Positions 9,849-34,918 of a stretch of 37,509 nucleotides of DNA are shown here, piece after piece. The DNA is from an uncultured Nitrospira sp. (GTDB lineage Bacteria > Nitrospirota > Nitrospiria > Nitrospirales > Nitrospiraceae). The first letter of the stretch is position 1. Each line of letters opens with the position of its first letter. The translations under genes were made by a program, and so were the position numbers. The stretch is from the NCBI GenBank assembly GCA_902500745.1, contig CABVRS010000015.1, positions 1-37,509 of the forward strand. Direction: 5' to 3'. The notes under the pieces are model-generated. The model searched no databases. It saw only the letters and a list, made by a program, of their open reading frames with translations, and was not told the origin of the DNA.

Positions 9849-11051
9849 TCAATTGTGTAGTGAGATGATGGTCTCGATCGCCCGCGGATGAGATGCATCG
9901 ACTTGATGCGCAAGGTTAATGACAAATGGGTCCGGATATTCTTTTCCGACAGCTTGATGCGTGATCGTAATGATCGGTTGATGCAATTGAGCCTGATTGA
10001 GTTCTGTGACGACTGCCAACTCCTGTGTGTTGAGACGGACGTGGCTATGGACTGGGTAGATTCCTATCAAGGCAATAAACGTCGATACGATTCGCTCATC
10101 GAGTTTGCGTGTCTGTGCTTCATGATAGAGGCGTTGGAAGGTTTGATGCGCTGTCAGCGGAGTGGTTCCCCCAAAGCCAGTGAGCAATTCGTCGTACCTG
10201 TCAACGACCATGAGAATGCGAGTGCGATCAGAGGTAAACTCCCCGCGCGCCTCTTTGGGGTACCCGCTGTCGTCGAGGTAGGCGTGGTGATTGGCAATGA
10301 GATGAAGAATAGAGGAGTCGAACCCGCCTTGTCGCTGCAACGTCAGCACACCTCGACTGGGATGAGTCTCGAATTCATCTTTCTTAGCTTGTGAAAGGTC
10401 GGACATGATGTGGGCTCGATGCCGAATGGCAGGTCGAATCTCTAAGAGCCCAACGTCGTGTAGGAGCGCTGCGGTCGCGAGTTCCTGCAGTTCCAGGGGA
10501 TTGAATTGGAGTGCTTGACCGAGGATAAGCGATAACGTACAGGTCGTGAGTGCATGTTGGCTTAGCTTCGAATCACCTGCCTGGTTCTGGCTCAGTGCGA
10601 TGAACAGGGAGGAGTGTGTGAGGGTTCTTGCGACGATCGTGATTTCTTGAACGGCTTCGGCGGCTTGTTGTGTATTGACAGTTCCGGTTTGGGATATTGT
10701 CGTAAAAACGGATTGGACTGCCCGAGTCAATTGCTGCTTGGCCAGCTTCGCTTGTGCATATTCTTCGTTCAACTGAGCTAAAGGTTTGAGTGCTTTCGAG
10801 GGTTGGGCAGGTGATGTCGGGTCTGTGGCCGATACTGGTATCGGCGCGTCATGCTGTGAGTTCGGGGCAATCCCACGGGCAAGATCGACGACGACCATTC
10901 GAACTCCTGCACGGGCTAATTTGTTAATTTGCGAAGAACGCTCCACGAGAAACGAGTGGTGAAGAAATGGAGAACGATACCAAGGAAGGTCTAGTGAGGA
11001 GACGTACATTCCGATCTGCAGGTCTGTGATTGAGATACGGGTAGTTGCCAT
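9849..11051 (-). CDS. HD-GYP-type protein with DUF3391 N-terminal domain, active site degenerate
   Basis: HD-GYP proteins hydrolyse cyclic-di-GMP. This 400-residue protein (from ATG 11051) has the N-terminal DUF3391 signature (ISITDLQIGMYVSSLD), a linker and coiled region (about 85-130), then the HD domain. The metal pair H198-D199 is present, but the motif is HDVGL, not HDxGK, so the conserved Lys is replaced by Leu202. HPSRG (H230) and H255-H256 remain. The HHE motif reads HHA (Ala257) and is followed by DDSGYP (GYP at 263-265). It may therefore bind c-di-GMP or metals with weak or no hydrolysis. A TTG at 11078 would add nine residues. Neither start has a good ribosome binding site. Confidence 0.82.
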   Translation of the reverse strand: MATTRISITDLQIGMYVSSLDLPWYRSPFLHHSFLVERSSQINKLARAGVRMVVVDLARGIAPNSQHDAPIPVSATDPTSPAQPSKALKPLAQLNEEYAQAKLAKQQLTRAVQSVFTTISQTGTVNTQQAAEAVQEITIVARTLTHSSLFIALSQNQAGDSKLSQHALTTCTLSLILGQALQFNPLELQELATAALLHDVGLLEIRPAIRHRAHIMSDLSQAKKDEFETHPSRGVLTLQRQGGFDSSILHLIANHHAYLDDSGYPKEARGEFTSDRTRILMVVDRYDELLTGFGGTTPLTAHQTFQRLYHEAQTRKLDERIVSTFIALIGIYPVHSHVRLNTQELAVVTELNQAQLHQPIITITHQAVGKEYPDPFVINLAHQVDASHPRAIETIISLHN

Positions 11052-11152
11052 GGCAGCGCAGGTTATATCTGTAACCAATTGAAATAATAGATGCTTTAGG
11101 TATCGGAAAGAATGAGAGAGAACTGTAGCTTGGCGTTTGCCGAAATTCGCAG

Positions 11153-11749
11153 CTAGGTCAAGGGATGCAAGGGGAGACAGAGTGATAATGAGACCTCAAT
11201 GCGGGGGCTCGATTTATCGACATGCTTATAGAGATGGGTTTCGACGATCCGGTTATCATTAATGCCGAGGCCCTCGCATACGGCATCTTGAGTGATTTTA
11301 AGGCCTCCATCGAGATCCCGGCGTAATGAAGAAGCGAAAAAAAACCTGATGGAGATGATCAACGGTTCAGAGCGTAATCTATCTCGTAACCTGGTCCTGA
11401 ACGGAGATTGTGTCAATGCCAGCCACACTTGTTGACCGACCTGCTTCTTATACGCACGTCCTGTAGCCGATAGCAAACGACGTCCGTTCACAGTCGCATA
11501 CTGATGGTTGATGCTTGGAGGGACAGGCAGAGTGATTGAGAGAGTATCAGGTGTGACGCTCACTGGTTGAGGTGTATCCAACAGGGTGGTTCGTATGAGT
11601 ACCTGATCAGGTATGCCTGGCGCAGGTGTCTCCTGGGCAGGCAGCTCTGTGCATGTTACACGTATAATGTCTCTCTTAATTCGATGCGAGACAAGGTCAG
11701 ATACGTGTTTCCTTAGTCTGGAAGATGGGCGGGGTCGGATTGGCGGCAT
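11153..11749 (-). CDS. RusA-family Holliday junction resolvase-like protein
   Basis: RusA enzymes cut Holliday junctions as homodimers. The C-terminal 130 residues match the family: LPVPPSINHQYATVNGRR (74-91), the SATGRAYKK region, then RRDLDGGLKITQDAV with D145, D147 and D155, and NDNRIVE with D165. These align with the catalytic Asp residues of E. coli RusA (D70, D72, D91). The usual Asn after DLD is Gly here. RusA proteins are about 120-140 residues; this frame gives 198. The first 62 residues are an unrecognised Pro/Arg-rich extension. A GTG at 11563 would give a normal 136-residue protein. The ATG at 11749 lies nine bases after the mraZ stop, so coupling is plausible. RusA is usually phage-derived. 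Confidence 0.75.
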   Translation of the reverse strand: MPPIRPRPSSRLRKHVSDLVSHRIKRDIIRVTCTELPAQETPAPGIPDQVLIRTTLLDTPQPVSVTPDTLSITLPVPPSINHQYATVNGRRLLSATGRAYKKQVGQQVWLALTQSPFRTRLRDRLRSEPLIISIRFFFASSLRRDLDGGLKITQDAVCEGLGINDNRIVETHLYKHVDKSSPRIEVSLSLCLPLHPLT

Positions 11750-11758
11750 GGGGCGAAA

Positions 11759-12199
11759 CTAGAGGAGATTCTGGATCTTTGCCATGTTTTGCTCATATCG
11801 ATCTTCCGTACGAGCAATATACCGACGCCAATCGCTTGGATTCCAAATTTCCATCCGATGATAGAGTCCGACCAAGATGATTTCCTGATCTTCATCGACA
11901 GGGACAAGCTTGCGCAAGCGTCCCGGAATCAAGATCCGTCCTGTTTTATCAATGTCGGATGATCCGGCCTCGGAAACCACAAAATGCATAAAAAGGCGGC
12001 TTTGATCTTCATCTAGGGAGGTTCTGGTTCGTTCGAGTACCTTTGCCCATTCCTTCGTCGAATAAATCAATAGAGATTGTTCTGGGCCTTTGAGAAACAT
12101 CACTGCTTCCCCATCGGCCTCAAGTTGTTCACGGATGGGGGAGGGGACGATAAAGCGTCCCTTTTCATCAAGCTTGCACAGGTACTCACCAGCGAACAT
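11759..12199 (-). CDS. mraZ: MraZ transcriptional regulator
   Basis: MraZ is a ring-forming DNA-binding repressor made of two SpoVT/AbrB-like swapped-hairpin domains. The first (1-60) begins MFAGEYLCKLDEKGRFIVPS and the second (about 76-125) has IDKTGRILIP (83-92). The 146-residue length is normal. ATG 12199 is preferred over ATG 12205 because it matches the family start (MF-G) and has AGG about nine bases upstream. The gene is normally first in the dcw cell-division cluster, followed by rsmH and ftsL. Here it sits between an HTH gene and a rusA-like gene. No TGGG-type MraZ site repeats are visible upstream, so its target may be elsewhere. Confidence 0.93.
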   Translation of the reverse strand: MFAGEYLCKLDEKGRFIVPSPIREQLEADGEAVMFLKGPEQSLLIYSTKEWAKVLERTRTSLDEDQSRLFMHFVVSEAGSSDIDKTGRILIPGRLRKLVPVDEDQEIILVGLYHRMEIWNPSDWRRYIARTEDRYEQNMAKIQNLL

Positions 12200-12213
12200 T
12201 GTCATTACCTACG

Positions 12214-12411
12214 TTAGGAGCTCAGAGAAGTTCTGGTTCGGTCTCGTATCCACTGCTCTAAATCCGAGCGGACAAATCGCCATTCTTTGCCAAGCTTGAA
12301 AGCAGGAATCTGCCGACTGTGCAGATATCGATAGAGTGTACGCTGGGTAATTTTGAGGTAACGGCACGTTTCCATCGCCGTCATCAGTTCGCTTTTGGAA
12401 GAACTGCGCAT
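12214..12411 (-). CDS. Excisionase-type helix-turn-helix DNA-binding protein
   Basis: Small 65-residue protein that is almost entirely one MerR/excisionase-like winged HTH (HTH_17): METCRYLKITQRTLYRYLHS, then RQIPAFKLGKEWRFVRSDLEQWI. The KLGKEWRF hairpin is typical of the wing. Such proteins act as regulators or as architectural factors for recombination. ATG 12411 is chosen because the promoter at 12467-12494 puts the transcript start near 12460. That would leave the upstream GTG at 12456 almost no leader. GGAG lies just two bases before the ATG. It is the first gene of the HTH-mraZ-rusA run, with an eight-base gap to the upstream mraZ ATG. Confidence 0.75.
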   Translation of the reverse strand: MRSSSKSELMTAMETCRYLKITQRTLYRYLHSRQIPAFKLGKEWRFVRSDLEQWIRDRTRTSLSS

Positions 12412-12466
12412 AACTCCATCTCGTGGCTGAGTCGGGAAGACGCACAATGCCTCCACTCTTATGTCT

Positions 12467-12521
12467 ATTCTAAATATCGTGGTGTAAATGTCAAGTGAAA
12501 GTATATGACAGTCTATGTCAA
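12467..12521 (-). promoter_or_regulatory. Strong promoter with TGACA repeats, reading into HTH-mraZ-rusA
   Basis: On the minus strand TTGACA (12494-12489) is followed after 16 bases by TAGAAT (12472-12467). Upstream, TGACA-5-TGTCA forms an inverted repeat at 12506-12520. A second TTGACA overlaps the stop codon of fmdB (12521-12516). Three copies of the TGACA half-site within 32 bases suggest an operator for a dimeric regulator, perhaps the HTH protein or MraZ encoded just downstream. Confidence 0.6.
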
Positions 12522-12862
12522 AGGCTGTCGGTATGGTCGCTTCCTTCCTCGCTTTCAGAGGACTCGGACATCATGGCTTCTTCTACCTCACGTGTATCTT
12601 CACCCATTTCTGCTCCCATTTTTTTCATGAGCCGGGCGACGCTCTTCGGATCATTTTCATCGAGGTGACCAAGGTTGGTTGGATCCATGAGTGATTCAAG
12701 TCGAGCGTCTTCTGATTTAGGAGAAGCAAATCTGGATAGGAGTCGGTCCAGCTTCGAGCCGCCACAGTGCTTGCAACTCGCTGAAATGAGGTGACTGGCG
12801 CTCAGTATCAGGATGGAACTTCGCCGATGGCATGTTTGGCATAGGTACTCATATATCGGCAT
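12518..12862 (-). CDS. FmdB-family zinc-ribbon protein
   Basis: Members of this family start with MPIYEYxC and carry two CxxC knuckles. Here the protein begins MPIYEYLCQTC, with C8, C11, C30 and C33 (SCKHCGG) as zinc ligands. The rest (about 45-114) is acidic and probably flexible, rich in Glu and Ser. The family is a putative regulatory zinc ribbon of unknown precise role. ATG 12862 is chosen by the conserved N-terminus and because it sits four bases after the comF stop. An upstream in-frame ATG at 12907 would overlap comF by 41 bases. Confidence 0.88.
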   Translation of the reverse strand: MPIYEYLCQTCHRRSSILILSASHLISASCKHCGGSKLDRLLSRFASPKSEDARLESLMDPTNLGHLDENDPKSVARLMKKMGAEMGEDTREVEEAMMSESSESEEGSDHTDSL

Positions 12863-12866
12863 ACAT

Positions 12867-13697
12867 TCACACTCCGAATGGTTCAAAATTGGATTGGGGG
12901 TGGGCACGAATTCGATCGGGAATGAGATTCGGATCCAGGGTTCGGCCTAAGGTCAACACAAGAACGTCGGACGAGCCGGCCTTGCGCAATGACTTGGCAC
13001 ATTCGTTGACCGTTGTGCCGGTTGTAAAGACATCGTCGATGAGAAGAACGCGTTGCATTCTGATCTTATCGGGATATTGCACCGCAAACGTGCCACGAAG
13101 GTTTTTTAGACGCGTTTTACGGGGAAGTGCGGTCTGGGCAGGAGAATAGATAGTTCGTATCAGATTCGTGTATGAGACGGGAACACCCAGGACGCGCCCG
13201 ATCTGATCGGCGAGCAGCAACGATTGATTAAATTCCCGCTGACGAAGTCGCTCACGATGTAAGGGGACTGGCATAATGACATCGACATGGCCGAGCAGCG
13301 GAAGTCGGTCAATCATAAGGGCGGCAAGAGGAGACGCTAATGAAACCTTGCCGCGATACTTGAATAAGCAGATTGCATCACGGAGCGGTGACGTGTAGGG
13401 GTAGAGTGTCCACGCTCTCGTGAAGGAGGGTGGGCGTTTCACGCACGTGTGGCAGGTATGGGTTGGGCTGTACGCAGTGGTCATCGCAGATGGAAAGGGG
13501 CGATCGCATCGTGAGCAACGAGCGGGAGGCATCAGTGCCATCGCGCTCCAGCAACCGGCACAAAAATGAGGAGTTGGATCATCGCTCAGCTGAGATCCAC
13601 AGATCGAGCAGTGAGTCGGCAGGACAAACCGTACCGTGCGACGCATGAGACCTGGGATCCGATCCAAGAGAAGGTTAGTCATAATGACCGTGCTCAA
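12867..13697 (-). CDS. comF: ComF-family amidophosphoribosyltransferase-like protein
   Basis: ComF proteins combine an N-terminal zinc region with a phosphoribosyltransferase fold and are linked to natural transformation, although many non-competent bacteria have one. Four CxxC pairs are visible (C30/33, C46/49, C61/64, C82/85). The double-Gly-type PRPP loop VLLIDDVFTTGTT (217-229) is preceded by DVIMPVPLHRERLRQREFNQS. The 276 residues are of normal length. TTG 13697 is chosen as the start because a strong AAGGAG lies six bases upstream; ATG 13682 lies about 20 bases from that site. It is encoded just upstream of fmdB. The conserved competence gene cinA is also in the window. Confidence 0.9.
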   Translation of the reverse strand: MSTVIMTNLLLDRIPGLMRRTVRFVLPTHCSICGSQLSDDPTPHFCAGCWSAMALMPPARCSRCDRPFPSAMTTAYSPTHTCHTCVKRPPSFTRAWTLYPYTSPLRDAICLFKYRGKVSLASPLAALMIDRLPLLGHVDVIMPVPLHRERLRQREFNQSLLLADQIGRVLGVPVSYTNLIRTIYSPAQTALPRKTRLKNLRGTFAVQYPDKIRMQRVLLIDDVFTTGTTVNECAKSLRKAGSSDVLVLTLGRTLDPNLIPDRIRAHPQSNFEPFGV

Positions 13698-20654: not shown

Positions 20655-21842
20655 TTACCACTTGTCTGAGGATCGTCCGCTGACGTCTTCTCCGATGAAG
20701 TTATGCAGGATTTGGCGCTGCAAGTCCGTCAGTTCGCCGTGCCCAGCGTCTCGCTCTCGTAAGGCTGGTTGAGACTCTTTGGAGACCGGGCTTGATCGGG
20801 CCAGTAAGATTTCGTCCAATGCTTCAGGACTGGTATCGACTTCCTTTTGTATTGCGACCAACCGCTGAAGTCCGAACAGCGTCCTGGTGATTTCAGTATG
20901 CATCGCATTGGAACTGGCGCCATAGACAAGCGAGTTCCAAAACTTCGTTTCGATTGCTTCCGATAAACCAAGGACTGCATACGCCGTGAGTTTTTCGAGT
21001 AACGCAGACTCAGTCCCTTCGAGTCCGTCGTAGGTAGGAATTAATCGTTCAATGGGACGCTGGGAAAGCACGTGCAAGGTCGCTTTCCACAGATCCGGAG
21101 AAGGAACGAGCTTCTCCTTTGTGTGCGATTCCGCACCGGAACATTTAGCCTGGATTGCCAGGAGATACTGAGATAAAAATTTGACTTTGCGGGCCGCGAG
21201 GGTGCCAGCTGGGATTCCCCAGATGTGGCCGATCTCATGGTCCTGTAAGGTGGTCTGATCAGACGTCTGCCGTTCACGCTCCGCAAGCGCGAGACGCTTT
21301 TTGAACCGCTCCGCAAACCGAAGCTGCGTTTGCATTTCGACGACGAGACGATGATTCTGATACTTGTCGGGACCGATCTCGTTCTTGTTCCAGGCTTCTT
21401 CCAACAGGCGCAGTGTGGTTGATGGCACGGCGGAACGAGCTTGCGTTTTGAACTCGTGGATGGTCGTGGAGGAAATTCCTCGATCGACCAGAAGCGCCGC
21501 TGCACGAATGGCTAATGCGTCCGCCGTTCTCGCAAGATTGGCAAGGGCAACACATTGCAGCCACGTTCTCTCTCGGCGAAGTCGAACTCGTCGCCGATAC
21601 TCATCTCGGCGCTCAATCATGGCGGTAATGGATTCTTGCGTCATGGTGGTGACGGGCTTCTTCCCAGACACGCAACGGGGATCAGGGCGATCTGCGACCA
21701 TGAAAAGAATTTCGTCATGTGTCACATCAAGGTGTTGCAGCAAGAGCAGTCGAAGCAAAATGCGACCTTGGATCGGTAATCCGGCAATGGTCTCTTCGAC
21801 TATTTCCGCGGTCAGCGGCGATGAAGTGAGGGTTGTGGTCAT
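20655..21842 (-). CDS. Hypothetical protein, unrecognised
   Basis: A 395-residue soluble protein with no signal peptide, membrane segment or Cys cluster. I do not recognise a family. It is mostly helical and rich in Arg, Glu, Gln and Leu, with a basic segment at about 70-95 (RRDEYRRRVRLRRERTW) and a C-terminal conserved-looking block that includes LTDLQRQILHNFIGEDV. Residues 190-205 contain a His-Glu pair (QDHEIGHIW) that is not a standard HExxH protease motif. The ATG at 21842 has no clear ribosome binding site. It lies 48 bases downstream of the small gene at 21891-22106 on the same strand, so the two may be cotranscribed. The length and even codon use suggest a real gene. Confidence 0.65.
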   Translation of the reverse strand: MTTTLTSSPLTAEIVEETIAGLPIQGRILLRLLLLQHLDVTHDEILFMVADRPDPRCVSGKKPVTTMTQESITAMIERRDEYRRRVRLRRERTWLQCVALANLARTADALAIRAAALLVDRGISSTTIHEFKTQARSAVPSTTLRLLEEAWNKNEIGPDKYQNHRLVVEMQTQLRFAERFKKRLALAERERQTSDQTTLQDHEIGHIWGIPAGTLAARKVKFLSQYLLAIQAKCSGAESHTKEKLVPSPDLWKATLHVLSQRPIERLIPTYDGLEGTESALLEKLTAYAVLGLSEAIETKFWNSLVYGASSNAMHTEITRTLFGLQRLVAIQKEVDTSPEALDEILLARSSPVSKESQPALRERDAGHGELTDLQRQILHNFIGEDVSGRSSDKW

Positions 21843-22378: not shown

Positions 22379-23101
22379 TTAGCCGCCTAATGTATCGAGG
22401 GTTTCCTTGAGGCTCTTGCGAATACAGGTGAAAATCGGCGTATCACGTAACGTATAGCGTGAGCCTTCGGTTTCGCGCAGCGCCATCACCAAGTCCAGAA
22501 AATCTTCCGGCTTGTCGCTTTCAAACGCCACCACCCATTCTTGATCGTCGAGTCCGAATGAGTAGGTCGTGTTCAATTTCACCGAAGGGAATCGATGGCC
22601 TACTTCAATATGCTCGTCCATCATGCCTTGCCGAGCCGCCTTGGTCAGCAAAAACCACTCCCGTGTCTTTAAAAATGGATACACGAAGATGTATTTGCTC
22701 TTCCCTGGGACGACGGTCAACCGTTTGCCTTCCTGGCCTGCATGCGAGTGATGATCGACGTATACGGATCGCTTGGTGATGGCCAGATACGAATAGGGGG
22801 TCGTGAGGTACTGCCCAAGGCCGGAGGCGAGGATCTTGCTGCTCATATCCTGAAACAGATCGAGGTCGTAGCTGATGCGCCAGAGCATGAAGTCGCAGTC
22901 GCCGCGAATCCCAATGGTCGAATAGGGGACGATCAACACTTGGCCGTTAAAATCTTCAACGGCTCGCAAGAATTCCTGTTTGCCCTGTGTGCGCACGTCC
23001 TCCGGGAGACGTCGCCAGGCCGGATCTACCTTATAAAACACAAAGTTCACGTATTGCCGCCGAGGCGCCTGCGCGGCAGGGGGTGTGTCAGGAGTCGACA
23101 T
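22379..23101 (-). CDS. Chlorite-dismutase-superfamily haem protein, probable coproheme decarboxylase (ChdC/HemQ-like)
   Basis: A 240-residue cytoplasmic protein of the dimeric alpha/beta-barrel Cld/HemQ superfamily. The proximal haem ligand is His164 in MMDEHIEVG. The distal Arg that true chlorite dismutases need for O2 formation should lie in the block before GLDD (Nitrospira defluvii VKRKLYHSTGLDD); here it reads VKLNTTYSFGLDD, with Leu176 at that place. The loop YPFLKTREWF keeps Tyr141 and Lys145, matching the catalytic Tyr region (YPMSK-like) of coproheme decarboxylases. So decarboxylation of coproheme III to haem b is more likely than chlorite detoxification. The ATG has an AAAGGAG site seven bases upstream. 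Name confidence is higher for the superfamily than for the reaction. Confidence 0.85.
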   Translation of the reverse strand: MSTPDTPPAAQAPRRQYVNFVFYKVDPAWRRLPEDVRTQGKQEFLRAVEDFNGQVLIVPYSTIGIRGDCDFMLWRISYDLDLFQDMSSKILASGLGQYLTTPYSYLAITKRSVYVDHHSHAGQEGKRLTVVPGKSKYIFVYPFLKTREWFLLTKAARQGMMDEHIEVGHRFPSVKLNTTYSFGLDDQEWVVAFESDKPEDFLDLVMALRETEGSRYTLRDTPIFTCIRKSLKETLDTLGG

Positions 23102-28650: not shown

Positions 28651-29046
28651 TTACTCATCCGTCTTTGATGCAGAGGTAAACTCGTCAATGATGCGGATTG
28701 CAGTTCCCAATGCCATCAAAGCTGTAGACCTCGTGCAGTTCTCCTTGGTGCGAATAGACTTGCCCGGATGGATAAAGTTGCGAAAGTCTCTCACTAGGTT
28801 TGCTTGAGCTTGCCCTTGTTCTGATATCAGGCGAAGGTGGCTAACCACCTTGATATATTGCCAGAGATCCCAACTGTCCAGTTTTTCGGCCGGCTTCAAC
28901 TGTCCTGGCTTAGATTCGGAACTTAAAGCTTCCAAAGCGCTTTGAATTTCACTCGGCCGTAGGGTGCTCAACTTCCACAACAACAGCGCTTCAACAACTG
29001 CTCCTCCCAGTTCCAAAAAATTAGGGTCACGTCTTGCTTTGTGCAT
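28651..29046 (-). CDS. HEPN-like hypothetical protein
   Basis: A 131-residue helical protein from ATG 29046, with LELGGAVVEALLLWKLSTLRPSEI and a C-terminal LVRDFRNFIHPGKSIR. The pattern R86-x2-R89-x3-H93 resembles the R-x4-6-H motif of HEPN ribonuclease/defence proteins and of many small island proteins with RDFRN-IHPG. There is no nucleotidyltransferase partner beside it. The open frame continues upstream to about 29247, in residues that look less protein-like, so the true start is uncertain; no strong ribosome binding site precedes the ATG. Its position between two damaged toxin-antitoxin loci supports an accessory origin. Confidence 0.5.
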   Translation of the reverse strand: MHKARRDPNFLELGGAVVEALLLWKLSTLRPSEIQSALEALSSESKPGQLKPAEKLDSWDLWQYIKVVSHLRLISEQGQAQANLVRDFRNFIHPGKSIRTKENCTRSTALMALGTAIRIIDEFTSASKTDE

Positions 29047-29403
29047 TCTGTTGAGCGAGTCAGAGGTCTCATAGTTCAGCCGCTGATCTTTGGTGGTCGT
29101 TATGTCTGATGGACCAGCTCCCGGAAGAAGTTGACGGCTTTCAGGAGTATGCTTATGGAGGCAAAAGTTGTGCTGCGGCGGCCAAGACGGCGCCGAGTAA
29201 TTCTTTTGGCCGGTCGCCGATTGCCCGATTAGCGTTCCCGACGGCAATCAACAGCCTCCGTCCCGCGGAGGAATATCCCACGGTTAGGTAGTAAGTTGGT
29301 CTCATGCTTGACAGTTTTACACGACAAGGACGATCCAATCGAAAGATCGAAGTGATGCTGTTGGGGAAGAAAACGTAAAGGTTTGTGTTCTTAATCCAAG
29401 GGG
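29047..29403. other. Gene-poor stretch, probably decayed
   Basis: About 350 bases without a convincing gene. A minus-strand frame at 29153-29338 (51 residues from ATG 29305, with KELLGAVLAAAAQLLP) and short sense-like pieces in other minus frames (LLKAVNFFRELVHQT) suggest remnants of one or more disrupted genes. A small hairpin, CCTCCG-TCCCG-CGGAGG, is at 29255-29271. I could not assign any of it. Confidence 0.35.
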
Positions 29404-30127: not shown

Positions 30128-31198
30128 ATGTCCGAAAAAGAGGATAAGAAGCGCGCGCTCGATTTAGCCCTTTCCCAGATTGAGAAGCAATATGGGAAGG
30201 GAGCCATCATGAAACTAGGAGCCGAGGAGAAGGTCGATGTACCGGCGATTTCCACCGGTTCACTGACGCTCGACATTGCGCTTGGAGTGGGGGGGCTGCC
30301 GCGCGGACGGGTGATCGAGATCTTTGGCCCGGAGGCTTCCGGCAAGACGACGATGACGCTGCACTGTATTGCCGAGGTGCAGAAGACTGGGGGAGTGGCC
30401 GCGTTTATCGACGCAGAACATGCGCTTGATCTCACCTATGCCAAGAAGCTGGGTGTGCAGGCGGATGATCTCCTTGTGTCCCAGCCAGACACAGGTGAAC
30501 AGGCCCTGGAAATTGCCGAGACTTTAGTCCGAAGCGGTGCGATCGATTTAATCGTCGTCGATTCTGTGGCGGCGTTGACTCCGCGCGCCGAAATCGAAGG
30601 TGAGATGGGCGACTCCCATATGGGGCTGCAAGCGCGGCTGATGTCACAGGCACTCAGAAAACTCACGGCGGCCATTTCGAAATCACTGACCACGGTGATC
30701 TTCATTAATCAAATTCGCATGAAGCTAGGGGTGATGTTTGGAAACCCTGAAACAACGACCGGCGGGAACGCCCTGAAGTTCTACTCCTCCGTCCGGCTGG
30801 ACATTCGCCGCATCGAATCGATCAAAGAAGGGCAGGATGTGATGGGCAGCCGGGTGCGTGTCAAAGTGGTGAAAAACAAAATGGCACCGCCATTCCGCCA
30901 GGCAGAGTTCGACATCATGTTTGCCGAGGGGATTTCCAAGACCGGCGAGTTGGTAGATCTGGGGGTGGACAAGAAGCTCATCGATAAATCAGGGGCCTGG
31001 TATTCCTATAAGGGAGAGCGAATCGGGCAGGGACGTGATGCCGTTCGGGAGTTTCTGAAGGCCAATGCCGCCACGGCGCATGAGATCGAAGCACGAATTC
31101 GAGAAGCGGCCGGTGTGCCGGCTCGCGCCGAGAAAAAGGCCGAGGTTAAGGAAGACAAGCCTGTTGCACGAAGCGAGGAAAAACGGGCGCATCGGTAG
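30128..31198 (+). CDS. recA: Recombinase RecA
   Basis: RecA forms filaments on single-stranded DNA, drives homologous pairing and triggers LexA cleavage. The 356-residue protein has the Walker [10 protein letters not shown] (67-75), Walker B-type [12 protein letters not shown], the L1 loop region with [16 protein letters not shown], and the L2 region [20 protein letters not shown]. The C-terminal tail is charged and variable. ATG 30128 has GTAGGAG upstream. It is the first gene of recA-recX-alaS-ruvX-mltG-deoC. Confidence 0.98.
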
Positions 31199-31208
31199 CC
31201 GGCGGAGC

Positions 31209-31706
31209 GTGAAGACTCGCGCGCACGCCACACCGTTGAGCCCGGATACGGTCATCCAACTCGCGGTTCGCTTTGTCGCACACCGAGATCGGACGATCGC
31301 GCAAGTCGAACAGTTTCTCACCTCACGAGGAATCTCGTCTCTCCAGGCCAAGCAGGCGATTCGCCGATTATTGGATCTCCGGTATCTCGATGATGAGGCC
31401 TATGCCAAGCGATGGGTGGAGAGGCGGATGGCCGCTCGCCCGATGGGGCAAGAGCGGTTGCGGGCAGAGTTACAGGACAAGGGAGTTGCCGATCGTCTGG
31501 CCGACCAGGTCGTCGCCGATGCCTTCCGAACAGTGCATGAAGATACATTGGCTCATCGCGTCCTGAAAGCCGCACAGCGGCGCGGCCGCCGGTTGACACC
31601 GACTCAAGCGGGGCGCCTTCTCCATCAACGGGGTTTCGCTGAAGACACGATCGACCATATAATGATGATGTTCGGAACGAACGAGGAATCTGTCCATGAA
31701 GAATAG
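31209..31706 (+). CDS. recX: Regulatory protein RecX
   Basis: RecX binds RecA filaments and limits their activity. The 165-residue, very basic all-helical protein has the tandem three-helix repeats of the family: QLAVRFVAHRDRTIAQVEQF, LLDLRYLDDEAYAKRWVERR and KAAQRRGRRLTPTQAGRLLH. GTG 31209, 10 bases after the recA stop, is chosen; the open frame runs further upstream inside recA, but that part is a shadow. The ribosome binding site is weak (GGAG directly before the start), suggesting low translation or coupling to recA. It overlaps alaS by 11 bases. Confidence 0.9.
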   Translation: MKTRAHATPLSPDTVIQLAVRFVAHRDRTIAQVEQFLTSRGISSLQAKQAIRRLLDLRYLDDEAYAKRWVERRMAARPMGQERLRAELQDKGVADRLADQVVADAFRTVHEDTLAHRVLKAAQRRGRRLTPTQAGRLLHQRGFAEDTIDHIMMMFGTNEESVHEE

Positions 31707-34329
31707 TGCGAGTGACCTACGGCGGGCGTTTATCCGTTATTTCGAGAAGCAAGGCCATCAGGCGGTTCCCAGCGCTGCGCTCATTCCGCAGGCTGATCCA
31801 ACCTTGCTGTTTACCAATGCCGGGATGAATCAGTTCAAGCGGGTGTTTCTCGGTGAAGAATCGCGCGCGTACAAACGAGCGGTGACTGTGCAGAAATGCC
31901 TGCGAGCCGGGGGCAAGCACAACGATCTGGAAAACGTCGGCTACACGAGACGGCACCACACATTTTTTGAAATGCTCGGAAACTTCTCGTTCGGCGATTA
32001 TTTCAAGGAAGAGGCGATCCGATTCGGGTGGGAGTTCTTGACCGACACCGTCGGTTTGGCGAAAGACCGCCTTTGGGTGACGATCTTCCGAGAAGACGAA
32101 GAGGCGGACCGCCTCTGGAAGAAGATCGGCGTGTCAGCTTCCCGCATCGTGCGGAGTGACGAGAAAGACAATTTTTGGCAGATGGCGGACACAGGGCCCT
32201 GTGGTCCTTGTTCCGAGATTCATTTCGATCAAGGGGAGGCGGTTCCAGGCGATGATCGCCCAAACGGAGACGGCGATCGTGTGATCGAAATCTGGAACCT
32301 CGTCTTCATGCAGTACAATCGGGATGCCGCAGGCACACTGCATCCGTTGCCCAAACCGAGTATCGATACAGGGATGGGGCTTGAACGACTGACGGCAGTC
32401 GCACAAGGCGTCTTGAGCAATTATGACAGCGATCTATTTAGGCCTCTCTTGACGGCCATCGCGCGGCGCGCTGGTGCCCAGTACGGTGACGCTGAGCAGG
32501 CGGATCGGTCCATGCGGGTCATCGCCGACCACCTGCGTGCCATGACCTTCTTGATGACGGATGGCGTCTTGCCATCCAATGAAGGGCGAGGCTATGTGCT
32601 CCGTCGGATCTTGCGTCGTGCCGCACGACATGGACGATTGCTCGGAATCGTCGAACCGTTCCTGCATGAACTGACGTCAGCCGTGGTTGACCAGATGGGA
32701 GATGTCTATTCTGAAGTCACCCGCGCGGCAAGTACGATTGTTGAGGCCACCAAGGGTGAAGAAGAACGGTTCATCGCAACGCTCGATCAAGGCCTGCCGA
32801 TTCTCAACGACATGATCGAGAAGACACGAGCCGCTGGCGGAATTGTCTTGGCGGGTGGGGACGTCTTCAAGCTGTACGATACGTACGGGTTTCCAATGGA
32901 CCTGATCACCGAAGCCTGTCGTGAGCAGGGAATGACGGTCGATGAACGTGGATTTGATACGGCAATTGAAGACCAGCGGACACGTGCGCGGAAGACTGGT
33001 GGGTTTGAGCAAGTTACGGCCCGTCCGGCGGTGGCGGAGTTGGCGAAGCGGATCGGTGCCACGCAATTTGTCGGTTACGACCGCTTAGAGAGCGACAGCC
33101 TTCTCCGCGCGATCCTTAAAAATGACCAGCTGGTCAAGGAAGCGTCCGAAGGAGACGAGGTCGAGGTTGTCCTGGATGCGACGCCGTTCTATGCCGAAGG
33201 AGGCGGACAGGTCGGAGACCGAGGAACATTGGTAGGCCCAGACGGGATGGTTGAGATCACGGATACGACGAGGCCGGCACCGACGCTTATCGTTCATAAG
33301 GGCACTGTGCGCAAGGGGAGTATCCACGAAGGCGAACAACTGCGGATGGCGGTCAACGGGTCGATTCGTCAGGATGCCGCACGTAATCACACGGCGACGC
33401 ATCTGGTCCATGCGGCTTTGCGCGATCTGCTCGGTCCACATGTCAAACAATATGGCTCTCTGGTCGGACCCAACCGGCTTCGCTTCGACTTCGCCCATTT
33501 TCGGCCGCTGTCGTCCCGCGATATCGACGACATCGAATCAACGGTGAACGAAGAAATTCGGAAGAACGAGGTGGTGAGTGCCCAAGTGATGAGCATTCAA
33601 GATGCGGTGGCGAAGGGTGCCCTGGCATTCTTCGGCGATAAGTACGGGGAACAAGTGCGAGTGGTCAGCATCGAGTCGTTCAGCAAGGAACTCTGTGGCG
33701 GCACTCACGTCAGACAGACCGGGGAGATCGGACTGTTCCGTATCGTATCAGAGGCGGGTGTGGCTGCCGGTGTCCGTCGGATCGAAGCTCAAACGGGGAG
33801 CGGCGCGTATGCGCTGATGAAGAAGCTTGAGGCCGACGTCCGCGAGTTGTCGGACCTGTTGAAGGTCGGGCAGTCCGAATTGGCGGCCAAGACTCGCAAG
33901 CTGGTGACCCAACTGAAGGACAAGGAACGGGAGTTGGAAGAGCTGAAACTCAAGATGGCTGGTGGTTCTGCCGCTGCTTCAACCGCCAAGACCGTTGCCG
34001 GGGTTTCCGTGCATGTGCAGCGGACGGATGGGCTCGATGTCAACGGCATGCGAGCGCTGGCGGATCAGTTGCGGGATAAGCTGAAGAGCGGCGTGATTGC
34101 GCTGGGCGCTGTTTCCGGAGACGAGAAGGTTTCGTTATTGGTTGTGGTGACCAAAGATTTAATCGGCAAACTCAAAGCGGGCGAGCTGATCAAAACGATG
34201 GCGGCCGAAGTGGGAGGGAGCGGTGGTGGCCGACCCGAAATGGCCCAAGCCGGCGGTAAGGACCCGGCCAAGCTCGATGCGGCGCTAGAAAAAGTCTTTG
34301 GCTTGGTCGAAAGCACCCTGCAGCGGTAA
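31696..34329 (+). CDS. alaS: Alanyl-tRNA synthetase
   Basis: Charges tRNA-Ala with alanine. The 877-residue protein is full length. The aminoacylation domain begins with RRAFIRYFEKQGHQAVPSA and TLLFTNAGMNQFK. The editing domain has zinc ligands H565 and H569 (HTATH) and C667 and H671 (CGGTH). The C-terminal domain includes a coiled coil (about 705-755) and the DHHA1-like end with GGSGGGRPEMAQAGG. The ATG at 31696 has GAGGAA upstream and overlaps recX. recA-recX-alaS is a conserved order. Confidence 0.98.
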   Translation: MKNSASDLRRAFIRYFEKQGHQAVPSAALIPQADPTLLFTNAGMNQFKRVFLGEESRAYKRAVTVQKCLRAGGKHNDLENVGYTRRHHTFFEMLGNFSFGDYFKEEAIRFGWEFLTDTVGLAKDRLWVTIFREDEEADRLWKKIGVSASRIVRSDEKDNFWQMADTGPCGPCSEIHFDQGEAVPGDDRPNGDGDRVIEIWNLVFMQYNRDAAGTLHPLPKPSIDTGMGLERLTAVAQGVLSNYDSDLFRPLLTAIARRAGAQYGDAEQADRSMRVIADHLRAMTFLMTDGVLPSNEGRGYVLRRILRRAARHGRLLGIVEPFLHELTSAVVDQMGDVYSEVTRAASTIVEATKGEEERFIATLDQGLPILNDMIEKTRAAGGIVLAGGDVFKLYDTYGFPMDLITEACREQGMTVDERGFDTAIEDQRTRARKTGGFEQVTARPAVAELAKRIGATQFVGYDRLESDSLLRAILKNDQLVKEASEGDEVEVVLDATPFYAEGGGQVGDRGTLVGPDGMVEITDTTRPAPTLIVHKGTVRKGSIHEGEQLRMAVNGSIRQDAARNHTATHLVHAALRDLLGPHVKQYGSLVGPNRLRFDFAHFRPLSSRDIDDIESTVNEEIRKNEVVSAQVMSIQDAVAKGALAFFGDKYGEQVRVVSIESFSKELCGGTHVRQTGEIGLFRIVSEAGVAAGVRRIEAQTGSGAYALMKKLEADVRELSDLLKVGQSELAAKTRKLVTQLKDKERELEELKLKMAGGSAAASTAKTVAGVSVHVQRTDGLDVNGMRALADQLRDKLKSGVIALGAVSGDEKVSLLVVVTKDLIGKLKAGELIKTMAAEVGGSGGGRPEMAQAGGKDPAKLDAALEKVFGLVESTLQR

Positions 34330-34333
34330 AATC

Positions 34334-34918
34334 ATGCCTACTCGTATTCTCGCGCTCGATTATGGGTCCAAACGAATCGGCGTCGCTCTCAGCGACGAAT
34401 TACAATGGACGGCACAACCGCTTGAAACATTTGAACGACGGGCATTGGATTGGGATGTCGCGCACATTGCCGCGCTCATTACGTCCCACGATGTAGAGCG
34501 AGTGGTCTTAGGCTTCCCACTCCAGCTGGATGGCCGCCAAGGGCCGGCAGTTCTTGCGATGCGAGTGTTTGCGGAGAAACTGGAAGCGGGAATCTCCGTG
34601 CCGATCGTCCTGTGGGACGAGCGGATGACGACGAAGGCGGCGGAAGATCTGCTGATCGCTGCGGACGTCAGCCGAAAAAAACGCAAGGGTGTGATTGATC
34701 GAGTCGCGGCGGCGATACTCTTGCAGAGTTATCTTGAGGCACAGGCCTCTTCGTCAACGGCGGATGGAGCGGCATGCACTGATGATGGGATAGAACAGAC
34801 GTGGGCGACAGAACCTCCAAGCGATCAATCTTATGATGCTACGCGCAATCCTCATCGGAATCATCGCCGTCGTCGCGATCGTCGGAACGGTCGGCTATCA
34901 GATGATGCGATGGGCTGA
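34334..34918 (+). CDS. ruvX: Putative pre-16S rRNA nuclease / Holliday junction resolvase-like YqgF, with C-terminal extension
   Basis: YqgF/RuvX has an RNase H-like fold and acts in 16S rRNA 5'-end maturation. Motifs: ILALDYGSKRIGVALS with Asp9, VLGFPLQLDG (58-67), WDERMTT (E96) and KGVIDRVAAAILLQSYLE with Asp122. The family is usually about 138-150 residues; this frame gives 194. The last 55 residues are a Ser/Thr/Asp-rich then Arg/His-rich tail whose final 86 bases overlap mltG in another frame. ATG 34334 is chosen because it gives the standard N-terminus, four bases after the alaS stop. Confidence 0.9.
   Translation: MPTRILALDYGSKRIGVALSDELQWTAQPLETFERRALDWDVAHIAALITSHDVERVVLGFPLQLDGRQGPAVLAMRVFAEKLEAGISVPIVLWDERMTTKAAEDLLIAADVSRKKRKGVIDRVAAAILLQSYLEAQASSSTADGAACTDDGIEQTWATEPPSDQSYDATRNPHRNHRRRRDRRNGRLSDDAMG

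Follow-up and report, generated by a model that had tools for sequence, protein, structure and literature searches.

The canonical place of mraZ is at the head of the dcw cluster, upstream of rsmH. The DXXXR motif is the DNA-binding signature of MraZ, and the MraZ box of E. coli has the form TGGGN. In mollicutes, the boxes are direct repeats of AAAGTG[T/G] (PMC8475190, available sections). MraZ was reported in the same sections to repress its own cluster; in M. genitalium it could be complemented only in cis, and the paper's conclusion was that repression by MraZ depends on linkage of mraZ, operator and cluster (PMC8475190). For the resolution of Holliday junctions, the available sections of PMC1193525 put RuvC/RecU in the nearly ubiquitous core and did not consider RusA, which they describe as very rare and prophage-associated. 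For genomes that lack both RuvC and RecU, RecG-RusA was suggested as a possible alternative (PMC3403352, available sections).

The window analysed here is a stretch of 37,509 nucleotides that makes up an entire contig of an uncultured Nitrospira sp.; the assembly has 2.66 Mb in 188 contigs and is 80% complete. A preliminary description of this stretch had pointed to an HTH-mraZ-rusA operon, and that observation is right and reaches far wider than the window. The order Nitrospirales, which includes nitrite oxidisers, provides a natural separation of MraZ from its operator throughout its members, and a phage-type resolvase that, as the data suggest, took the place of RuvC and shares an apparent operon with a division regulator. 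We regard three parts as solid: mraZ is unlinked order-wide, an MraZ-type operator was left at dcw, and RusA lies beside mraZ where RuvC was not found. As an explanation of the whole, we propose with a probability of roughly 0.72 that mraZ was relocated, that MraZ controls dcw in trans and that RusA replaced RuvC. Among the titles and opening lines of abstracts listed, and in the available sections of PMC8475190, PMC8871954, PMC5138195, PMC1193525 and PMC3403352, neither a relocated mraZ nor a loss of RuvC was described for Nitrospira.

Gene order at the mraZ-rusA locus

The genes follow one another on the minus strand as HTH, mraZ and rusA, with intergenic gaps of 8 and 9 nt, in agreement with the gaps of about 10 bases described before. 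The operon's first gene (12214..12456, minus strand) encodes a small HTH_17 (excise-like) DNA-binding protein, which scored 57.3 bits against PF12728 and 48.9 bits against the NCBIfam model 'excise'. Its start codon is uncertain, with the first GTG located 10 nt past the -10 hexamer of the candidate promoter. The second gene (11759..12205, minus strand) encodes MraZ with two MraZ domains. It matched PF02381 in two stretches (94.4 bits, cut-off 23), scored just under the cut-off of TIGR00242 (92.1 against 98.35 bits) and matched MraZ chains in the PDB. The third gene (11153..11749, minus strand) encodes a RusA-type Holliday junction resolvase, the RusA domain (PF05866) scoring 32.9 bits against a cut-off of 22.8. 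Often found as upstream neighbours are an FmdB-like zinc-ribbon gene (12518..12907, minus strand) and a ComF/GntX-like gene (12867..13697, minus strand), the latter under the curated cut-offs of both models. A gene for an HD-domain (DUF3391 + HD) protein (9849..11078, minus strand) is often the downstream neighbour in the genus.

Elsewhere in the window, positions 30128-34918 hold recA, recX, ruvX and a gene that we take to be alaS-like, with recA about 18 kb from rusA. A chlorite dismutase family protein, a familiar Nitrospira gene product, is encoded at 22379-23101 (minus strand). Two open reading frames on the minus strand, at 28651-29247 (198 aa) and 20655-21842 (395 aa), had no Pfam match at E 0.001.

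Judged by MraZ, the nearest named relatives among the matches listed were Nitrospira, namely JAOUMR010000007 (97%) and N. moscoviensis NZ_CP011801 (90%), the latter belonging to the Nitrospiraceae, Nitrospirales, Nitrospiria and Nitrospirota. The two families compared here are presumably the Nitrospiraceae and a second family of the Nitrospirales.

A search of other genomes showed that the HTH-mraZ-rusA order recurs and is not confined to the window. Matches to mraZ were found in 55 of 59 genomes of the same genus, the window's own included. Twenty-nine same-genus loci were compared besides the window's own; the HTH gene was present in 28 (the exception being L010) and rusA was downstream in 28 (the exception, L030, is cut by a contig end). 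The complete order recurred in 78 of the 80 named Nitrospira-type loci, where L245 stops at a contig edge and L256 had no HTH gene that could be found. Beyond the genus, mraZ adjoined rusA in 14/14 further loci of the order, three from other genera of the family and 11 from the second family, and no rsmH occurred in the stretch. The three carry HTH-mraZ-rusA. All 11 second-family loci have comF-mraZ-rusA, one with fmdB in between, and no HTH gene was detected in them by tblastn. The neighbourhood common to the whole order is pyrD/lolD followed by comF-(fmdB)-(HTH)-mraZ-rusA. Since the HTH gene occurs in the first family and was undetected in the second, mraZ-rusA seems to be the older pair, with the HTH gene as a mark of the first family. 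We propose that in the ancestor of the Nitrospirales mraZ landed in this comF-side housekeeping locus directly before rusA and was lost from the dcw head.

Because the genes form an apparent operon, the link between repair and division that had been raised for this locus is possible. We give even odds to the view that the mraZ-rusA operon is an accident of position, in which case trans control of dcw and the replacement of RuvC would both hold and repair and division would be uncoupled. An accident is consistent with the second family, which keeps mraZ-rusA without a detected HTH gene, with one Nitrospira that seems to have lost a working HTH, and with the flanking genes comF and fmdB, which have no known tie to division. 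However, rusA was next to mraZ in all 80 named loci, the adjacency was held in two families, and the commonest gap before the longest rusA frame was 9 nt. If the genes are co-transcribed, the shared mraZ-rusA operon may bring some benefit. A specific form of coupling, in which HTH-mraZ-rusA would act as a repair-division switch with one promoter raising both the resolvase and a trans-acting dcw repressor, delaying division transcriptionally during junction resolution, appears unlikely.

Position of mraZ relative to the dcw cluster

The preliminary description had placed mraZ away from any cell-wall cluster, and this holds across the order, where rsmH heads the dcw stretch and mraZ adjoins rusA elsewhere. 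In three genomes read at length, the stretch starts with rsmH and continues with ftsI, murE, murF and mraY. A second mraZ beside rsmH was seen in 0/30 same-genus rsmH loci (1.5-kb flanks). The window's own genome, which is 80% complete, gave one mraZ match only and no second copy was found in it; its rsmH sits on another contig (C44) that ends inside rsmH, and the upstream side is absent from the assembly. A further, weak mraZ hit was present in six genus genomes (25-26 profile positions, E 3e-4 to 7e-4), and in three of them it reaches the cut-off only with neighbours in frame; these hits are probably AbrB-like. Outside the order, rsmH followed mraZ within about 0.6 kb in 51/52 loci (46/47 genomes) from families elsewhere in the class and phylum. 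These loci were made up of 30 best matches and 22 picked for spread from a larger set, with five genomes fetched twice. The single exception was L082, where a search of the 1.5-kb flank did not reveal rsmH.

One genome of the same family, G276 (95% complete), has the rsmH operator and an undetected mraZ, which could be an assembly gap or a real loss.

The MraZ tree was built with the same-genus rows thinned to eight and rows of 130 residues or fewer dropped. The 22 rows of the order fell on one side of a branch (100/100) with a stem of 1.66 changes per site, against 51 canonical rows. This supports the unity of the order and does not place the order further; the tree is compatible with a relocated gene that changed rapidly as well as with horizontal replacement. 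By parsimony, the departure of mraZ from dcw and the use of RusA for RuvC both fall on the order's stem. At matched RsmH divergence (50-75% identity), MraZ was better conserved on average in the order than in the canonical set: 303 pairs from 27 genomes of the order had a mean identity of 69% (range 53-93), versus 56% for 313 pairs from 50 canonical loci (range 34-84), two ranges that overlap, with a few canonical genomes counted twice. We count this in favour of the proposed explanation.

A possible but less probable course of events is that a foreign mraZ arrived beside rusA and the dcw copy was lost after, the operator being kept because the newcomer recognised it. The very long stem would suit such an arrival, as would an identity to canonical MraZ of only about 27-38% and a RusA that comes from a phage-rich family and was undetected in 11 outgroups. 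However, rapid change following relocation would give the same long stem, and no donor lineage was found among the best 80 of 235 confirmed stretches. Of these, 79 carry the names Nitrospira, Nitrospiraceae or Nitrospirae in their titles, and the one named Nitrosospira is apparently the same-genus G056.

RusA and RuvC

The claim of a RusA-like resolvase was supported both by the PF05866 score above the cut-off and by the presence of the catalytic residues. The protein has about 65 residues ahead of the catalytic domain, and residues 68-188 align to E. coli RusA 1q8r, from which PDB 2h8c differs at residue 70. Equivalents of D70, D72 and K76 were present in 95/95 proteins of the order and that of D91 in 94/95, the residue being unknown in the other; these four are the catalytic residues of RusA.

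RuvC was found in 0/235 genomes of the order, a set that includes 153 of high quality and spans 37 genera, each of these also without a match. A panel of 28 genomes gave RuvC in 0/17 of the order versus 11/11 outgroups, and RusA in 16/17 of the order (15 above the curated cut-off) versus 0/11 outgroups. The RusA exceptions were G223, with none by HMM, and G173, with a match under the curated cut-off. All 28 genomes had a RuvB match, weak in the outgroup G204 (1.4e-15). In 11/11 loci of the family, RuvA comes after YebC and no RuvC was detected between them. RuvC, RuvA and RuvB were adjacent in 8/11 outgroup loci, three of which had YebC before RuvC in the fetched flank; the remaining three showed RuvA-RuvB only, RuvB only and the weak G204 match. 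No RuvA or YebC was detected in the fetched flanks of six second-family RuvB loci (L282-L287), and ruvA and ruvB may be split in the second family, unlike in the first.

Since the catalytic residues are conserved and RuvC was not found where RusA occurs, RusA is likely the substitute for RuvC in the order. The third gene of the operon would then encode an apparently active Holliday junction resolvase, doing in the cell what RuvC does elsewhere. It is quite unlikely that the job is done by RuvX (YqgF) or by another resolvase such as RecU. RuvX is encoded in the window, and the available sections of PMC1193525 suggest YqgF as a possible stand-in when both RuvC and RecU are absent. The same sections, however, describe YqgF as co-occurring with RuvC/RecU in most genomes and as lacking demonstrated resolvase activity, and in our panel RusA and RuvC were nearly complementary, with the catalytic residues of RusA conserved.

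RusA is phage-like at the level of its phage-rich family. A near phage donor was considered and rejected; 75 phage records matched, but identity stayed below 60% in every case and no match spanned 80% of the query.

The MraZ-type operator upstream of rsmH

By sequence, the protein is an MraZ that does not have the canonical place at the dcw head upstream of rsmH. Both DXXXR motifs are present (DEKGR and DKTGR), and D13..R17 and D86..R90 were invariant in an 11-row alignment. The protein also matched an antitoxin family of PHROG weakly (6e-5), which probably reflects a shared AbrB fold.

Operators were scored as three GTGG boxes with a 10-bp period, which gives 12 defined bases, with a threshold of at least 11/12; at rsmH, the scored region took in 60 bases inside the tblastn match. 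Upstream of rsmH, an operator was found in 29/30 genus genomes and in 20/20 further genus genomes, in 15/16 genomes from other genera of the same family, and in 10/14 of the second family, or 54/60 plus 20/20 genomes over the order. A perfect operator lies at rsmH in G013, whose MraZ is the nearest to that of the window among the loci fetched. The boxes fell below the threshold in 4/14 second-family genomes, 1/50 genus genomes and 1/16 genomes of the other genera, and control of dcw by MraZ may be weak or lost there. The score left out nine of the 59 genus genomes, namely the window's own (rsmH cut), G011, G015, G020, G022, G032, G039, G047 and G053; in G022, a box was visible by a strict pattern search.

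The same kind of operator was absent from the relocated genes, with 0/44 loci having boxes upstream of mraZ and 0/29 upstream of the HTH gene (L010 skipped). Among the controls, boxes were present upstream of canonical mraZ in 30/35 loci (a set that counts four genomes twice) and upstream of canonical rsmH in 0/22, where 120 bases were used, a shorter stretch because mraZ lies just upstream. Dinucleotide shuffles gave at most 0.25%. A dcw-type promoter followed by two boxes was seen in 52/60 rsmH regions of the order and in 38/52 canonical mraZ regions, and the distance from the -10 to the first box was mostly 9-11 nt in the former and 10-12 in the latter. The middle box is usually AAGTGG or AAAGTGG, fitting the mollicute MraZ site AAAGTG[T/G]. 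A strict box pattern gave 18 hits in 18 genomes, six of which had none; ten of the hits were just upstream of rsmH, and the eight elsewhere are at background level, the reversed pattern giving 10 hits. The strict and promoter-anchored patterns gave no hits in the window's own genome, as expected because the contig end cuts rsmH and leaves its promoter outside the assembly.

The simplest reading of these positions is that mraZ vanished from between its operator and rsmH. Since the boxes were kept at rsmH and are absent at the relocated mraZ and HTH genes, the most likely reading is that MraZ controls dcw in trans and that the operator of its own gene was lost. In this model rsmH kept the dcw promoter and the MraZ operator ahead of it. 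MraZ produced at the new locus would bind the three 10-bp-spaced GTGG boxes just past the -10 hexamer and repress dcw, and the relocated mraZ, driven from a separate promoter, would no longer be autoregulated through such boxes. If MraZ still controls dcw in the Nitrospirales, it must do so in trans, without this autoregulation. The reported need for cis linkage of M. genitalium MraZ speaks against trans control (PMC8475190, available sections), and the Nitrospirales make the generality of that conclusion directly testable.

We consider it very unlikely that a different regulator binds the rsmH operator, or that this operator is a fossil, the relocated MraZ having other targets. The degraded boxes of some second-family genomes and the strong change of the MraZ sequence along the stem could be explained in this way. 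On the other hand, boxes were kept in 49/50 genus genomes with the canonical geometry in 52/60 regions of the order, both DXXXR motifs were retained, and other sites of the strict box pattern showed no excess in the 18 genomes.

The HTH gene, its promoter and the upstream palindrome

A shared strong promoter had been described for the operon. A sigma-70-like site, TTGACA-16-TAGAAT, does lie just upstream (12467..12494, minus strand), and a similar layout recurs, by eye, in same-genus loci. The promoter scan gave one site against a mean of 2.1 in shuffles of the same region; since this count is not above the shuffles, the weight of the promoter lies in its recurrence. No terminator-like site turned up in the same scan (10900-12700, minus strand).

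Upstream of the promoter is an exact palindrome, TGACA-N5-TGTCA (12506..12520, minus strand), a candidate operator of the HTH protein. It was found at 9/10 bases or more in 63/77 named loci, 51 of them exact, compared to 0.5% and 0% in shuffles, and in 3/3 loci of other genera of the family. It was found in 0/11 second-family loci, where the HTH gene was undetected, and in 0/2 HTH-less loci, both from one genome. Across the whole window, the palindrome with one mismatch occurred at two sites versus 1.36 expected, no rarer than chance. This pattern suggests that TGACA-N5-TGTCA is likely the operator of the HTH protein, which we offer as a proposal because the loci scored are related and the palindrome is not rare window-wide. 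In the Nitrospiraceae, mraZ would be expressed together with the small HTH protein, which would probably bind this site.

A LexA/SOS reading of the palindrome was dropped, as the site seems unlike LexA boxes. In L010, from the same genome as L256, no HTH frame is open between fmdB and mraZ (positions 1150-1510); by translation, a short stretch there looks like decayed HTH remains, with mraZ and rusA present.

The HTH gene product had been called excisionase-type. It does match excisionase models, which amounts to a general HTH_17 resemblance, and no integrase was found among the 17 window proteins given to Pfam; a comparison with the PDB gave no meaningful match. Its MAD1 model score was 66.4 bits, under the curated cut-off of 80, and RusA and MraZ had no PADLOC match, and a MADS defence system was therefore rejected. 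The suggestion of a domesticated mobile-element module with an excisionase, for which the excisionase matches and the phage-rich family of RusA could be cited, is highly improbable given a synteny stable over an order, the missing integrase among the 17 proteins, the HTH gene undetected in second-family loci and decayed-looking in one Nitrospira, and no defence match except the weak mad1 hit to the HTH protein.

Comparison with known systems

Compared with MraZ/dcw autoregulation in E. coli and M. genitalium, the Nitrospirales share the two DXXXR repeats and direct-repeat boxes of 10-bp period just after the dcw promoter. They differ in that mraZ lies apart from dcw and has a promoter at which we found no boxes.

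The HTH protein has the HTH_17 domain in common with excisionase-like HTH_17 proteins and with the small HTH proteins of MAD1. Unlike the MAD1 proteins, it scores under the cut-off and has no integrase or defence partner among the proteins scanned.

The resolvase resembles E. coli RusA (PDB 1q8r) in the equivalents of D70, D72, K76 and D91. It differs in its N-terminal extension, in being kept beside mraZ order-wide and in occurring where RuvC was not found. The nearest parallel for the exchange itself is RecU in Firmicutes/Mollicutes, which is likewise a non-orthologous replacement of RuvC with RuvAB retained (PMC1193525, available sections). In contrast to that case, the candidate substitute in the Nitrospirales is RusA, in another lineage.
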